From positions 4,117,001 through 4,181,000 of the forward strand of contig NZ_CP014275.1 in the NCBI RefSeq assembly GCF_001578105.1: 64,000 bases of DNA, given 5' to 3'. Of this stretch, positions 57,764-64,000 are shown one piece after another; the stretch's first letter is position 1, and the number at the start of each line of letters is the position of its first letter. The position numbers and the translations under genes are program-made. The DNA is from Martelella sp. AD-3 (GTDB taxonomy: Bacteria; Pseudomonadota; Alphaproteobacteria; Rhizobiales; Rhizobiaceae). The notes under the pieces were generated by a model. The model was not told the DNA's origin. It ran no database searches and worked only from the letters and a program-made list of their open reading frames with translations.

Positions 57764-57896
57764 ATCTCCCCCTTGAGGGGGAGATGTCGCGAAAGCGACA
57801 GAGGGGGGTAGCAGACCCCTCTGTCGCTTTGCCGACTTGCAGGTTTTTCACCCCTCTCTGCTCCTCTCGGGGCATCTCCCCCTCAAGGGGGGAGAT
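57764..57896. repeat. Large palindromic (MITE-like) repeat between gyrB and the hydratase operon
   Basis: Outer arms ATCTCCCCCTTGAGGGGGAG on the left and, on the other strand, ATCTCCCCCCTTGAGGGGGA on the right enclose the element. Inside it, AAAGCGACAGAGGGG (57792-57806) pairs perfectly over 15 bp with CCCCTCTGTCGCTTT (57816-57830) around a 9-nt loop. The right half repeats the pattern less perfectly. It lies between two convergent genes and probably stops both transcripts. No protein-coding gene is credible in 57633-57962. Confidence 0.75.
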
Positions 57897-57962: not shown

Positions 57963-59627
57963 TCACCCCTCAAGCGGCAAATACCCGACGTTTCCGCGTT
58001 CAGCCGCCGCCTCTGCAAGCTCATACCCCGCATCCGCATAGCGGATGATCCCCAGCGACGTATCGTTGGTGAGCGCATGCTCCAGCCGCTCGGCGCCCTC
58101 GGCCGTGCCGTCGGCGATAATGGTGACGCCGGCGCTGGTCATATAGCCGGCATAGCCGCCGCCGCCGGAATGGATGACGACGAGATCGGCCATCGAGGCG
58201 CACATGGTCATGGCGTTGATCAGCGGCCAGTCTGCGATCGCGTCGGACCCGTCCGTCATGTTCTCGGTCATGATGTTCGGATGGGCCATGGCGCCGGCAT
58301 CGAGGTGATCGCGGGAGAAGGCGACGGGTCCCGCAAGTTCGCCCTTCGCCACCAGTTCGTTGACCGCGACCGCCAGCCGTGTGCGCTCGCCATGGCCGAG
58401 CCAGGCGATGCGAGCGGGAAGCCCCTCGAAAGGCACGTTTTCACGGGCGAGCCGGATCCAGTTGGTGACGATGAAATTGTCGGGAAACATCTCCAGCACA
58501 AGGTCGTCGATGCGGGCGATATCGCTTGCCTCGCCCGAAAGCGCCATCCAGCGGAACGGCCCGATGGCTTCGCAAAACAGCGGCCGTAGATAAGCCTCTG
58601 TGAAGATCGGAATATCGAAGGCGTTGGCCACGCCGCCCTCGCGCGCCTGGGTGCGGATCAGATTGCCGTTGTCGAATACCTCCGCGCCCTTTTGCTGGAA
58701 TGTCAGCATGGCGCGAACGTGATCGGCGATCGAGGCGCGGCTTGCGGCCATCAGCTGCGCCGGGCCTTCCTCGCGCAGACGTTTCACGTCCGCCAGGCTC
58801 ATGCCCTTCGGCACATAGCCATAGATGAGATCGTGCGCCGAGGTCTGATCGGTGACGATATCCGGCGTGATGCCGCGCCGGGCGATCTCGGGATAAATAT
58901 CGGCGGCATTGCCGACGAGGCCGACGGAGACCGCCTTCTTCGCCGCCACCGCCGCGTTGATCATCTGAAGCGCGGCATCAAGGTCCGGCGCAATCTCGTC
59001 AAGGAAGCCGATTTCATGACGTTTTTTCGCCCGCTCGGCATCGATATCGACCACCAGGATGGCAGCGCCCGCCATGCGACCGGCAAGCGGCTGGGCGCCG
59101 CCCATGCCGCCGAGCCCCGCCGTCAGAATGAAACGGCCGGCCAGCGAACCGTCGAAGCGCTTTTCGGCAATCCGCATGAAGATTTCATAGGTGCCCTGGA
59201 TGACGCCTTGCGAGCCGATATACTGCCAGGCGCCGGCCGTCAGCCCGCCCCAGCAGATCAGCCCCTTGCGCTCCAGTTCGTAGAACACATCCGCCTTCGC
59301 CCACTGGCCGACGATATTGCAGTTCGCCATGATGACGAGCGGCGCTTTCGCGTGGGTCTTCAACAGGCCGACCGGCTTGCCGGACTGGATGACGAGCGTC
59401 TGGTTCTCGTCCATTTCCAGCAGCGTTTTCACGATCATCGCATGGGACGGCCAGTTGCGCGCGGCCTTGCCGAGGGCGGCGTAGACCACAAGATTGTCGG
59501 GGTCCTCGCCCACGGAGAGCACGTTTTCCATCAACCTGAGCAGCGCTTCCTGCCGCCAACCCTTTGCACGGACTTCAGGCCCGCCGGGAATCGGAAAATT
59601 CGGATGGCGCGGATTGTCTTTCGGCAT
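57963..59627 (-). CDS. Urocanate hydratase-family protein, probably thiourocanate hydratase
   Basis: The 554-residue protein adds water to urocanate-like imidazole acrylates using tightly bound NAD+. Family landmarks are LVVYAALGKAARNWPSHAMI, VIQSGKPVGLLKTH, ILTAGLGGMGGAQPLAGRMA (NAD+ site), DIVTDQTSAHDLIYGYVP and FCEAIGPFRWMALSG. The active-site loop near residues 485-500 reads IHSGGGGYAGYMTSAG, whereas histidine-pathway HutU has HHGGGVGMGFSQHSG, so the substrate pocket differs. No hutH, hutI or hutG is nearby; the partners are desulfurase, hydantoinase and carbamoylase. A thiourocanate-type substrate is therefore inferred. GAGGAGG precedes the ATG. Last gene of the operon. Confidence 0.85.
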   Translation of the reverse strand: MPKDNPRHPNFPIPGGPEVRAKGWRQEALLRLMENVLSVGEDPDNLVVYAALGKAARNWPSHAMIVKTLLEMDENQTLVIQSGKPVGLLKTHAKAPLVIMANCNIVGQWAKADVFYELERKGLICWGGLTAGAWQYIGSQGVIQGTYEIFMRIAEKRFDGSLAGRFILTAGLGGMGGAQPLAGRMAGAAILVVDIDAERAKKRHEIGFLDEIAPDLDAALQMINAAVAAKKAVSVGLVGNAADIYPEIARRGITPDIVTDQTSAHDLIYGYVPKGMSLADVKRLREEGPAQLMAASRASIADHVRAMLTFQQKGAEVFDNGNLIRTQAREGGVANAFDIPIFTEAYLRPLFCEAIGPFRWMALSGEASDIARIDDLVLEMFPDNFIVTNWIRLARENVPFEGLPARIAWLGHGERTRLAVAVNELVAKGELAGPVAFSRDHLDAGAMAHPNIMTENMTDGSDAIADWPLINAMTMCASMADLVVIHSGGGGYAGYMTSAGVTIIADGTAEGAERLEHALTNDTSLGIIRYADAGYELAEAAAERGNVGYLPLEG

Positions 59628-59637
59628 GGTTTCCTCC

Positions 59638-60726
59638 TCAGGCCAGCGCGTAATCGGCGATCGAGATGCCGAGCGCCTTTTCCACCACCGGATAGACGGC
59701 GGGATCTTTCACGCTGGACGAAAGCGGAATGACCGTCTTCGGCACATGCAGGACAAAGATGGTCATGCCCTCTTGCAGCTGGCCGACGCTCAGCGGTTCG
59801 CCCTCCGGCGAGAGCGTGGTGATGACATCGGGAAAGGTCGCGATCCGATTGCCGCCGGCATCCTCGACCGCCATGTATTCGTTCATCACATGCAGCACCA
59901 TCGCCCTGTCGCCCGAGCCGACGGTGACCGTGCCGACATCGAAGGCCTCATTGGTATAGACCACAGCCTTCTTCGTCACCTTGCCCTCGGTCAGGATCGC
60001 GCCATTGGTGGTTTTCACAATCGCATCGATCACGGCCGATCCGCCCTTGGCCTCCGCCGCGATGATCGCCTCGCCGAGCGCCAGCGCCATCGAGATGCCA
60101 CCGAGCGCCGCATTCACCTTCACATAGGATGCCCTGAGCGGATTGCGACAGGAGGCGATGAAGCCGCCGGACTGGTCGGCTGCGGTTCTGAGCACCGGCG
60201 AGATCTTCGCCGTCGCGCCCTTGACCACCAGTTCGATATAGCGGTTTTCGGCGCGGTTGCCGCCGACGGCGGTCTGGATCATCCGCTCCGGCGAGCTCGC
60301 CATGCCGATCGCACCCATGTCACCGGTCGGATGCGCGCGGATATCGCCGACGGCGTCGACCACCTTGGTGCCGAGCACGGCGGACGGCAGCCAGCCGTTC
60401 AGCGTCGAGGATTTGCCGTTCTGGCCAACGATCAGGCCCGAGAGTTTTTCGCCGAGCGCATTCTGCAGCAATTCGGCAGCCTTGATATAGTCGATGCCCT
60501 GCATTTCCCACGGCGTGGTGGAAGCCGGCGCGCCGATGGCGGCTGCGGTCGCCACCCAGTCGTCATCGGAGAGTTCCTCCACCGAAACCAGTTCCGGCTT
60601 GCCGACATTGACGGCGGCATAGCCGAGCATGCGGCCATGATCGGCCCATCCGCCGCCGCCTGCGGCATAGACCGAGCCGCCCTTGACGGCGGGTTCCACA
60701 TCTTTGGTCGTCAGGATACGGCCCAT
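59638..60726 (-). CDS. DUF917 / S-methyl-thiohydantoin desulfurase-family protein
   Basis: A 362-residue protein with the DUF917 layout: N-terminal GRILTTKDVEPAVKGGSVYA, AAGGGGWADHGRMLG, PELVSVEELSDDDWVATAAA, IGAPASTTPWEM, and a C-terminal half containing VVKGATAKISPVLRTAADQS and VLHVMNEYMAVEDAGGNRIA. Members of this family remove sulfur from the thiohydantoin formed in ergothioneine breakdown; others sit in hydantoin operons with no assigned role. It starts 1 nt after the carbamoylase stop and ends 10 nt before the hydratase, so it is central to this operon. Family is clear; the desulfurase activity is inferred. Confidence 0.85.
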   Translation of the reverse strand: MGRILTTKDVEPAVKGGSVYAAGGGGWADHGRMLGYAAVNVGKPELVSVEELSDDDWVATAAAIGAPASTTPWEMQGIDYIKAAELLQNALGEKLSGLIVGQNGKSSTLNGWLPSAVLGTKVVDAVGDIRAHPTGDMGAIGMASSPERMIQTAVGGNRAENRYIELVVKGATAKISPVLRTAADQSGGFIASCRNPLRASYVKVNAALGGISMALALGEAIIAAEAKGGSAVIDAIVKTTNGAILTEGKVTKKAVVYTNEAFDVGTVTVGSGDRAMVLHVMNEYMAVEDAGGNRIATFPDVITTLSPEGEPLSVGQLQEGMTIFVLHVPKTVIPLSSSVKDPAVYPVVEKALGISIADYALA

Positions 60727-60727
60727 C

Positions 60728-61981
60728 TCATTGCTCCATCAGTTGTGTGTCGAGCCGCTTCACCGCTTGAAGCAGCACCTCGGCTCCGAGCGCGATATCG
60801 GCGTTTTCCGCGAATTCTTCCGGCGCATGAGAACGCCCGTCCCGGCAGGGGATGAACACCATGCCGGCCCTGGCAATGCGCGCCATGAAGGCGGCGTCGT
60901 GGCCGGCACCCGATGCCATGCGGCGATGGCCGGCGCCGGTCGTTTGGCAGGCCGCATCAAGCGCATCCATCACCAGGTCATCCATCGGCATGGCCGGATT
61001 GTCGGAGACGAGGCGCGGCGGCGCGATGCTGACGCCATTGTCCCGCGCGATGCCTTCAAGAACCGCTTCAAGCGATGTCAGGAAATCACCGAGATCGTCG
61101 CGGTGTTCCGAGCGGATATCGAGCAGCATGCGCACCCTGGACGGCACGACGTTGGCGGCGTTGGGCCACATCTCGAATTCGCCGGTGGTGGCGGCAAAAT
61201 GGCCGGGCGTCGCCGCAAGCGCGCTGGAAAGGGTCTCGACAGCGAGCACCGCATGGGCGGCGGCGGCGAGCGCATCGGCGCGGCGGTTCATCGGCGTCGT
61301 GCCGGCATGGTCGGCCCGGCCCTCGACAATGATCTCGACGCGGGTGATGCCGGCAATGGCGGTGACGACGCCGATGTCCAACGTCTCGCCTTCCAGCACC
61401 GGCCCCTGCTCGATGTGAAGCTCGAGAAAGGCGCGGATATCGTCGCGGGCTTTCTGTTCGGCGTCCGGATCGCCGCCAACGTCTCTGATGCCTTCGGCCA
61501 GCGTCATGCTATCTGCTTTCCGCCCCAGCCATTCATCCGGGCGAACACCGGCCATGCCGCGCGAACCGATACAGGAGACGCCGAAGATCGAGACTTCCTC
61601 GGCGAGAAAGTCCGTCACTTCCAGATCGTGTTCGAGTTCTATGCCCGCCTCCTCAAGACCGCGCGCCACTTCGAGCGCGACGACAACGCCGGCAACCCCG
61701 TCGAAACGCCCTCCATCCGGGACGGTGTCCGAATGCGATCCGAGCATGATCGTGCCGATGCCGGGCGTCCTGCCCTTGCGCGCGCCGACCAGATTACCCG
61801 CCGCATCGATCCGGGTTTCAAGACCTGCGGCGCGAAACGCGTTTTCAAGATAGGCACGGCCTTCGAGAAAGAGCGGCGAGAAGGCACGGCGCGTCCACGG
61901 CCGGTTCGGGTCGGTGATCGCGGCCAGCGCGTCGATATCGGCGGCGATGCGCGCCGGAGAAACAGCGAGATTGCGGCTCAT
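60728..61981 (-). CDS. N-carbamoyl-L-amino-acid hydrolase-family (M20) amidohydrolase
   Basis: A 417-residue zinc enzyme of the AllC/HyuC group. Metal ligands are His83 and Asp (LGSHSDTVPDGGRFDGVAG), Glu129-130 (FLAEEVSIFG), His near 191 (LELHIEQGPVLE) and a C-terminal His (RSHAPEEFA). RADHAGTTPMNRRADALAAA is the dimerisation and substrate region typical of L-carbamoylases and allantoate amidohydrolases. In this operon it would release L-glutamate from N-carbamoyl-L-glutamate; beta-ureidopropionate or allantoate are alternatives. It overlaps the hydantoinase stop/start by 4 nt. Confidence 0.9.
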   Translation of the reverse strand: MSRNLAVSPARIAADIDALAAITDPNRPWTRRAFSPLFLEGRAYLENAFRAAGLETRIDAAGNLVGARKGRTPGIGTIMLGSHSDTVPDGGRFDGVAGVVVALEVARGLEEAGIELEHDLEVTDFLAEEVSIFGVSCIGSRGMAGVRPDEWLGRKADSMTLAEGIRDVGGDPDAEQKARDDIRAFLELHIEQGPVLEGETLDIGVVTAIAGITRVEIIVEGRADHAGTTPMNRRADALAAAAHAVLAVETLSSALAATPGHFAATTGEFEMWPNAANVVPSRVRMLLDIRSEHRDDLGDFLTSLEAVLEGIARDNGVSIAPPRLVSDNPAMPMDDLVMDALDAACQTTGAGHRRMASGAGHDAAFMARIARAGMVFIPCRDGRSHAPEEFAENADIALGAEVLLQAVKRLDTQLMEQ

Positions 61982-63357
61982 CGGATCATCTCCCGAAGCG
62001 GCAGGCTCGCCTCGGGGCGCACGAAAGCGCCCGTGCCGGGCTCGACGACGGCCTTTCCGTCAAAGACCTGTTTTCCGCGCAGCCATGTCGCCGCCACCCT
62101 GTAGGGCAGCCGCATGCCGTTATAGGGTGACCAGCCGACGACATTATTGCCGCTTTCGCCCGCGTCATAGACGAAATCGCCCGGTTCCAGCACGGCAATA
62201 TCGGCGTGCTTGCCGATCTCAAGCGCGCCTTTTAAATGGTCGATACGGAAATGCTTCGCCGGGTTTGCCGCCATCAGTCTTGCAGCCCAGAAGAGCGGCA
62301 CGCCATGCTCGAGCGCGCCCTTGATGAAGAGCGGCATCATCACCTCAAGCCCCGGAACGCCCGAGGCATTCGCCAGCATCTCGGGATTGGTCTTGCGGTC
62401 CTCCGACCAGCTCACATGATCTGTGGAGACCAGCGTGACATTGCCTGAAGCCACATGCCGCCAGAGTTTTTCGACCTCGGCGCGCGGACGCACCGGCGGG
62501 TTGATCTTGGCCTTGCCGCCAAGCCGCTTCACATCATTTTCCTCGTCCAGCGTCAGATAATGAATGCAGCATTCGACCGTGGCATTGTGGCCCTCAGCCC
62601 GATAACCGGCGGCGATTTCGTAGCCGCGGCCAAGCGAGCAGTGCACCACATGGGCCGGGCAGCCGGTTGCCGCCCCGGTCTCGTAGATCTGGTGCATGGC
62701 GAGCAGCTCGGTCAACGGCGGGCGCGACAGGCCGTGGGCGCGGTAATCGGTGACGCCGGAGGCCTTGACCTTCGCGATTGCGGCGTTGACGAATTCATCG
62801 TCTTCATTGTGAACGCCGGCGGCAAGGCCGGTGGGCGCGATCGCTGCAAAGCATTCTTCCAGAAGCGCGGCGGGGATGCGGGGAAAACGGGTTGGATGGG
62901 TGCCGAAGGTGGAAAACTTGAAAGCGGCAACCCCGGCGTCTACCTGCTCGGCGATGCGGGCGGCGCCTTCAGCGGGATCAACTGTGCCATAGAGCGCGAA
63001 ATCGACGCGCGCCTGCGGCGAAGCGTGGGCGATCTTCTTTTTGACTGCTTCGGCCGAATTCACCACATTGCCCTCGTCATAGGGCATGTCGATGATGGTG
63101 GTGACGCCGCCGCCGGCGGCCGAGCGCGTCGACCAGATGAAATCCTCCTGGTCCTTCTGACTCAGTGAATGCACCTGCGCGTCGATGGCGCCTGGCAGGA
63201 TCAGGGCGTCGCCGAGATCATGGCGCTCGCGGGCGGTGGGGGCGATGCCCTGGCCGATGGCGGCGATCAGCCCGTCTCGGACGGCGACGTAGCCGCCCCT
63301 GACCACCCGATCGGAAAGCACCAGCGTGCCTTTCAGAACGAGATCGAAATCCGACAT
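61978..63357 (-). CDS. Hydantoinase/dihydropyrimidinase-like amidohydrolase with altered metal site
   Basis: A 459-residue cyclic amidohydrolase. The metal motif reads ILPGAIDAQVHSLSQ, so the first His of the usual HxH pair is Gln61 with His63 kept. Further ligands are the carboxylated Lys147 (AAFKFSTFGTH), His183 (GVHNEDDEF), His239 (VVHCSLGRG) and Asp in VSTDHVSW. NPPVRPRAEVEKLWRH is typical of hydantoinases and allantoinases. It would open a hydantoin ring to an N-carbamoyl amino acid for the next enzyme. AGGAGA precedes the ATG. A single-metal or altered two-metal centre is inferred from Gln61. Confidence 0.87.
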   Translation of the reverse strand: MSDFDLVLKGTLVLSDRVVRGGYVAVRDGLIAAIGQGIAPTARERHDLGDALILPGAIDAQVHSLSQKDQEDFIWSTRSAAGGGVTTIIDMPYDEGNVVNSAEAVKKKIAHASPQARVDFALYGTVDPAEGAARIAEQVDAGVAAFKFSTFGTHPTRFPRIPAALLEECFAAIAPTGLAAGVHNEDDEFVNAAIAKVKASGVTDYRAHGLSRPPLTELLAMHQIYETGAATGCPAHVVHCSLGRGYEIAAGYRAEGHNATVECCIHYLTLDEENDVKRLGGKAKINPPVRPRAEVEKLWRHVASGNVTLVSTDHVSWSEDRKTNPEMLANASGVPGLEVMMPLFIKGALEHGVPLFWAARLMAANPAKHFRIDHLKGALEIGKHADIAVLEPGDFVYDAGESGNNVVGWSPYNGMRLPYRVAATWLRGKQVFDGKAVVEPGTGAFVRPEASLPLREMIR

Positions 63358-63367
63358 TTGATGTCTC

Positions 63368-64000
63368 CTAGTAGAAGCGGCCGGTGCGCCGCGCGGTTGC
63401 CCGCTCGAACATCACGAAACCATCGTGAATGAGGAGCGCCAGAACCCCGACCACGAGGCCGCCTTGCAGAACGAAAGCGGTGTTGTTCGACAACAGCCCG
63501 GCGATGATCACCTCCCCGAGCGTCTTGGCGGCAACCGTCGAGCCGATCGTCGCCGTCGCCAGCGAGATGACGACCGAAAGGCGGATGCCGGCGAGAATGA
63601 CGGGAAAGGCCAGCGGAAACTCGACCTGCATCAGGCGCTGCGTGCCGGTCATGCCAACCCCGCGCGCGGCCTCCGAGACATTGCCCGGCAAATTGGTCAG
63701 CCCCGTCAGCGCGTTTTCGAAGATCGGCAGAAGGCCATAGAGAAAGAGCGCGATCAGCGTCGGAATCGGCCCGAAGCCGAACATCGGCACGGCAAGCGCC
63801 AGCACGGCGACCGGCGGAAAGGTCTGGCCGATATTGGCGATCGAGCGCGACAGCGGCAGGAACTCGACGCCGAAGGGCCGTGTGACGATGATGGCGAGAC
63901 CGACGGAAAAGAGCGTCGCCGCAACCGTCGCCACGCCGACAATGGCGAGGTGGCTCAGCGTCAGGGAGAGCAGGCTGGTCTGGGTATAGATCGCCGGCGC
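63368..64000 (-). CDS. OpuB/ProW-type ABC transporter permease (partial, 5' end outside the window)
   Basis: The visible 210 C-terminal residues run to the window edge (first codons read APAIYTQTSLLSLTLSHLAI). Hallmarks of the glycine-betaine/choline/osmoprotectant permease family are LIALFLYGLLPIFENALTGL, EAARGVGMTGTQRLMQVEFP (EAA loop) and LGEVIIAGLLSNNTAFVLQG. About five membrane segments are visible. The stop is 10 nt before the hydantoinase start, so it is in the same operon. OpuB-type transporters import quaternary amines, and ergothioneine (a betaine) is carried by a member of this class in other bacteria. Confidence 0.9.
   Translation of the reverse strand, partial: APAIYTQTSLLSLTLSHLAIVGVATVAATLFSVGLAIIVTRPFGVEFLPLSRSIANIGQTFPPVAVLALAVPMFGFGPIPTLIALFLYGLLPIFENALTGLTNLPGNVSEAARGVGMTGTQRLMQVEFPLAFPVILAGIRLSVVISLATATIGSTVAAKTLGEVIIAGLLSNNTAFVLQGGLVVGVLALLIHDGFVMFERATARRTGRFY

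Follow-up and report, generated by a model that had tools for sequence, protein, structure and literature searches.

Ergothioneine, a prized antioxidant, is made by fungi (mushrooms) and by some bacteria, and to our knowledge its consumers in soil, in the sea and on plant roots are poorly mapped. Its bacterial catabolism has been reconstituted in vitro in five steps (Beliaeva, Leisinger, Seebeck 2021, as cited in PMC9732360), and because NCBIfam also names the enzymes (NF058529, NF058530, NF058538 and NF058540), the catabolic pathway is already known. Here we describe an ergothioneine (ert) cluster that begins at the right end of a 64,000-nt stretch of Martelella sp. AD-3 DNA (the window, C1:4117001-4181000, in a genome of 5.04 Mb) and spans C1:4174963-4186009 as a whole. 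All five enzyme classes are present here too, in one operon, and we take them to be those of the five reconstituted steps. In addition to these enzymes, the Martelella operon carries an ATP-binding cassette (ABC) importer of the OsmF/YehZYXW type in its middle, which is the less expected part of the locus. On the basis of sequence comparison, we consider it highly probable that this minus-strand operon of a Martelella-like rhizobial bacterium serves both the uptake and the complete catabolism of ergothioneine. It would give Martelella, and relatives belonging to several families, what appears to be a complete and self-sufficient route. The cluster goes beyond chance, because four curated equivalog models were exceeded and genomes of other genera and families show the same gene order.

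In the proposed route, the importer would bring ergothioneine into the cell, after which an ergothionase would strip off trimethylamine to give thiourocanate, thiourocanate hydratase would convert this to a thiohydantoin propionate, and a DUF917 desulfurase would free sulfide to leave hydantoin-5-propionate. ErtD would then open the ring, yielding N-carbamoyl-L-glutamate, from which ErtE would produce L-glutamate, ammonia and carbon dioxide. The enzyme identities come from family-specific sequence tests, and the reactions are those ascribed to these families. The initial annotation, made from the window alone, had placed the last four steps there, and each of the four genes indeed exceeded its specific NCBIfam cut-off: the hydratase with 1027 bits on NF058530 (cut-off 930), the desulfurase with 604 bits on NF058529 (cut-off 440), ErtD with 777 bits on NF058538 (cut-off 600) and ErtE with 599 bits on NF058540 (cut-off 520). 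The desulfurase, which also matched PF06032 and PF20906, is 97% identical to its M. lutilitoris counterpart. ErtE scored higher on NF009531, an unspecific Zn hydrolase model (654 bits, cut-off 486), and its residues His83, Asp85, Glu128, Glu129, His189 and His361 were conserved in 84/84 aligned homologues. The closest solved structure to ErtD is the L-selective hydantoinase 1gkr. At the HxH metal motif, ErtD reads DAQVH, with Gln61 in place of the initial His seen in the two best solved relatives, one a hydantoinase and one an allantoinase (DEHVH and DVHVH); Gln occupies this position in 78/78 aligned ErtD homologues.

The hydratase exceeded the hutU cut-off as well (687 bits, cut-off 375), as might be expected of a duplicated histidine-utilisation (hut) pathway acting on urocanate. 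We give this explanation almost no credence. Scores on NF058530 are bimodal, with matches over cut-off in 40/297 genomes of a family sample, each above 1000 bits, and the next listed match at 717; a desulfurase would have no role on urocanate; and the genome has a separate HutH and HutU. This candidate was set aside. The hut genes, HutH with an intact 4-methylideneimidazol-5-one (MIO) motif, are at C1:111382-114879, about 4.06 Mb from the ert cluster on a 4.55-Mb contig, or about 0.48 Mb if the contig is circular. What does lie upstream of the window genes is a lyase. The condition that the initial annotation had set for its own refutation, no such lyase nearby together with an adjacent hut set, therefore fails.

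The annotation had put this ring-releasing lyase outside the window, where it was found just past position 64000, but had expected a member of the aspartase/fumarase superfamily; the protein instead belongs to PF00221, the family of aromatic amino acid lyases, and lacks the MIO triad Ala-Ser-Gly (GSIGCA-D, against GSVGASGD in HutH). Among solved structures, Treponema denticola ergothionase 6s7j came first (E 1.2e-51) and histidine ammonia-lyase next (5.3e-37), and the best histidine ammonia-lyase NCBIfam models gave 211 bits against a cut-off of 524. We aligned the T. denticola enzyme, the genome's own HutH and 70 homologues (this lyase included, each with more than 85% coverage). The homologues came from 80 named loci, 5 further loci and that of the window, and at least one genome is present twice (L031, L138). 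Tyr53, Lys63, Asp64, Lys383 and Glu411 (T. denticola numbering) were present in 70/70 lyases, and the MIO columns examined read Cys, Ala in all of them, whereas HutH has Ala and Val in place of the two Lys. Another 22 lyases share these residues, the sole exception being one Arg at Lys63. Tyr53, Lys63, Lys383 and Glu411 were reportedly identified in 2019 as essential residues of the T. denticola enzyme. The Martelella lyase has in common with T. denticola ergothionase (6s7j, 6s7q) its family, the absence of MIO and the Tyr, two Lys and Glu positions, but the two are distant and differ in length (520 aa from our chosen start, against 497) and in the MIO columns (Cys-Ala against Glu-Gly). That ergothionase lacks MIO is also stated in PMC13405746.

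The lyase was found in the cluster at 66/80 named desulfurase loci, these being the best 80 of 373, that is, the closest ones, searched up to 10 kb on either side. Among the 40 genomes with a hydratase over cut-off, 31 had a lyase with 51% identity or more, at any position in the genome (in six of these matches the aligned part contains a stop, and another match is split in two). PMC13405746 reports ergothionase by BLAST from few genera and leaves divergent homologues uncounted; the loci found here suggest that the enzyme is not rare in this bacterial order. The desulfurase exceeded its cut-off in 6/398 genomes of a phylum-wide sample, all from the window's own order, and in 32/397 genomes of an order-level sample. 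Two further loci deserve mention. At L143:15002-16684, a divergent lyase (best piece 32% identical) that keeps the ergothionase residues and has no MIO triad lies beside an ert cluster. At L028:11100 (record title Marinicella sp. W31), no single hydratase piece covers more than 46%, which indicates a broken gene or an assembly error; this record appears nearer to Martelella than its title implies, because its desulfurase is 95% identical to that of the window.

Conceivably, the substrate of the lyase is not ergothioneine itself but ergothioneine sulfonate or a different thioimidazole betaine. The T. denticola enzyme is said to accept ergothioneine sulfonic acid too. A pathway for ergothioneine sulfonate in Agrobacterium radiobacter is cited in PMC13405746. 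We regard this alternative as very improbable, as the same operon encodes a thiourocanate hydratase and a thiohydantoin desulfurase over their specific cut-offs, whereas the S-methyl NCBIfam models fell below cut-off (for the hydratase, 750 bits on the S-methyl thiourocanate hydratase model, under the cut-off of 880).

We next considered the importer. The initial annotation had suggested a search for a binding protein and an ATPase beyond the window end, and both were found directly upstream, together with a second permease. The binding protein scored 498 bits on the OsmF model NF049931 (cut-off 400), and the genes run in the order binding protein, long permease, ATPase, short permease, all between the lyase and ErtD. 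We presume that this four-gene layout is that of YehZYXW. The Martelella importer shares the OsmF model match and the gene order with the YehZYXW/OsmF reference systems (4wep, 5teu, 4nd9) but, unlike them, forms part of an ergothioneine operon. No publication linking ergothioneine to YehZ/OsmF was found among the open-access texts searched, where a nutrition review (PMC12328183) contains both terms; a report elsewhere is possible. In EgtU of Streptococcus pneumoniae, the permease is fused to the binding domain. Its binding protein belongs to the same superfamily as ours (7txk, 9egi; E 1.9e-26 for 9egi), whereas in Martelella permease and binding protein are on separate genes. Based on gene neighbourhood, we think that the Martelella importer probably takes up ergothioneine. 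In the genome, the EgtD model had no match and EgtB had two below cut-off, a weak negative in that control genomes also gave no hit over cut-off; ergothioneine should accordingly come from outside.

Linkage of the importer to ert genes was most evident outside the window's family. An order-level follow-up of 25 desulfurase genomes from other families showed lyase, binding protein, permease, ATPase and permease in the cluster at 16/25 loci (f91, f96, f101 and f110), with the importer always flanked by the lyase and the next ert gene. At one further locus a contig end cuts the cluster with 3/4 importer genes in place, and the other 8 have no importer in the cluster, one of them on a 6.1-kb contig too short to show it. 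The importer is found within the operon across five families (f1, f91, f96, f101 and f110), and three genomes have it next to a lyase that is separate from other ert genes: G931 (lyase 38% identical) and G995, both among the 8 unlinked loci, and G842 (loci L238, L239 and L251). G842 (L251), where lyase and importer are adjacent, had no desulfurase match; perhaps only trimethylamine is taken there, or thiourocanate is handled by another route. By raw hand count, uncorrected for kinship, OsmF exceeded its cut-off in 25/32 desulfurase genomes compared with 60/365 others, a comparison that joins two draws that appear to be the same 397 genomes.

To relate the binding pocket to that of EgtU, we mapped the EgtUC contact residues given in PMC9732360, using motif and spacing rather than the EgtUC sequence; the motif spacing in the binding protein fits EgtUC. 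Of 13 contact positions, seven are identical (K242, I243, T275, N339, E375, Y419 and Y443), two are exchanged for other aromatic residues (F293 to Tyr and Y341 to Trp) and four differ (G244, T274, T296 and R379). We then compared 25 binding proteins linked to ert genes with 78 unlinked ones, one genome being represented twice (L127, L156). The cage residues Tyr82, Asn128, Trp130, Tyr219 and Tyr243, as well as Lys32, Asp34 and Thr64, were invariant in 25/25 linked and 78/78 unlinked proteins, and Ile33 and Glu167 differ in no more than two of them. This conservation indicates a pocket suited to a quaternary amine; the pocket alone does not specify ergothioneine. Linked and unlinked proteins differ most clearly at position 63, chosen post hoc after a scan of every column (Gly in 22/25 and 19/78, respectively). 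This position adjoins Thr64 and aligns with Thr274 of EgtU, a contact of the thione sulfur. It ranked first against label shuffles within groups (0/1000, likewise for the best of all columns), for which 55 proteins in six groups were used and group membership, though not kinship inside groups, was preserved. The three linked exceptions have Ala, unlinked relatives in the same families sometimes have Gly (for example, 6/9 in f96), and PMC9732360 states that Thr274 is not strongly conserved across EgtU sequences. As an ergothioneine signal, the pattern at position 63 is no more than suggestive.

Several observations weigh against an operon for ergothioneine uptake and breakdown. For the lyase, no ergothionase model was among its NCBIfam matches, and the remaining 9/40 hydratase genomes had distant lyase matches only (26-32% identity), four of them with a 31-32% lyase near the cluster. 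For the importer, NF049931 names the binding protein glycine betaine OsmF, and two carboxylate-binding residues of EgtU are replaced here, Arg379 by Ser and Thr296 by Asn. The importer was in the cluster at just 4/80 named loci (three titled Martelella and one Marinicella sp. W31). In the window's own family, OsmF exceeded its cut-off in 20/40 hydratase genomes and adjoined the cluster in only 3 (G000, G161 and G088), as counted by hand with some contigs short. The importer is thus not obligatory. A tree of 102 binding proteins interleaved linked and unlinked members (16 label changes, compared with a shuffled mean of 22.5; at least 11 forced by supported branches, with the bootstrap not settled), and no ergothioneine-specific subfamily was apparent in it.

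Such observations would fit a catabolic operon as described whose importer transports betaines or osmoprotectants in general, such as glycine betaine, and is merely co-transcribed. The family name, the 60 genomes that have OsmF and no desulfurase over cut-off, retention of the importer by relatives without ert genes, and cage residues that are identical in linked, unlinked and Escherichia coli OsmF proteins all favour this explanation. We nonetheless judge it unlikely, given that the importer lies inside the operon in five families and beside an isolated lyase in three more genomes, and that Gly63 is enriched in linked proteins. The earlier proposal that a betaine-type importer supplies the substrate holds in that the importer is present and recurs in clusters of other families, whereas the substrate itself is provisionally assigned from gene neighbourhood and linkage in the own family is sparse. 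E. coli OsmF has Thr at position 63 and Arg at position 171, as in EgtU. Elsewhere, L107:1453-3297 encodes a 614-aa protein with an OsmF-like stretch (111 bits, under cut-off), and its gene follows one for a membrane protein that by eye resembles a BCCT-type transporter.

The interleaving is also consistent with an importer that is fixed in place while the ert genes vary. DNA-level comparison of twelve linked/unlinked pairs showed that both flanks match in 8/12, representing three lineages (f96, f91 and Martelella) and 6 distinct genomes without ert genes; the other four mismatch at one or both flanks. At matching sites, the importer either lies between the lyase and the other ert genes or stands alone. 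In the window's genus (L003 and L140), the shared flanks are gyrB and a baeRF12 gene. Locus L242, which has no ert genes, contains 1.6 kb of DNA on its lyase side. Repeated loss, or recombinational exchange of the whole locus, would explain this pattern. We tentatively propose, as an idea that could well prove wrong, that the glycine betaine label on OsmF/YehZYXW importers is mistaken and that ergothioneine is what they import, at least in this order and perhaps throughout the family, E. coli YehZ included. Loss or gain of the catabolic genes around a fixed importer would then move strains between import alone, for antioxidant use, and import with breakdown, for food. If ergothioneine is the substrate, a family labelled as glycine betaine transporters would gain a physiological substrate that is easily testable, and ert-less relatives with the importer would be ergothioneine hoarders, not eaters.

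The gene layout is given in Table 1. The five consecutive minus-strand genes at the right window end follow the order first described for them, with intergenic gaps of 10, -4 (an overlap), 1 and 10 nt. Past the window end, the permease, ATPase and permease genes overlap successively by 4 nt, 231 nt separate permease 1 from the binding protein gene, 55 nt separate the latter from the lyase gene, and 128 bp lie between the lyase start and the divergent regulator. The whole minus-strand gene set probably forms one transcript.

Table 1. Genes of the Martelella ert cluster, in window numbering.
Feature	Position	Strand	Length	Remark
Thiourocanate hydratase (urocanase family)	57963..59627	-	554 aa	
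Thiohydantoin desulfurase (DUF917 / S-Me-THD family)	59638..60726	-	362 aa	
ErtE, N-carbamoyl-L-glutamate amidohydrolase (M20 family)	60728..61981	-	417 aa	
ErtD, hydantoin-5-propionate amidohydrolase	61978..63357	-	459 aa	
Permease 2, OsmF/YehZYXW-type ABC importer	63368..64108	-	246 aa	Window cuts at 64000
Importer ATPase	64105-65043			Past window end; upstream of permease 2
Importer permease 1	65040-66242		400 aa	Past window end
OsmF-type binding protein	66474-67391 (= L003:9474-10391)			Past window end; start chosen by us
Ergothionase (lyase)	67447-69009 (= L003:10447-12009)		520 aa	Past window end; start chosen by us
Divergent LysR-type regulator	69138-70313 (= L003:12138-13313)	+		Past window end

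A simple promoter scan at the locus gave 2 sites against a shuffle mean of 1.9, which is no excess. The palindrome TCTCCCCCTCAAGGGGGGA occurs after the hydratase gene (57875-57893) and again in the gap between the binding protein and permease 1 genes (L003:9421-9439), and may be a dispersed intergenic repeat. The LysR-type regulator contains two tandem LysR-type helix-turn-helix domains, both above the Pfam cut-off when scanned separately, and its N-terminal helix-turn-helix was covered in 26/29 and 9/14 of the loci that have a match of at least 35% identity.

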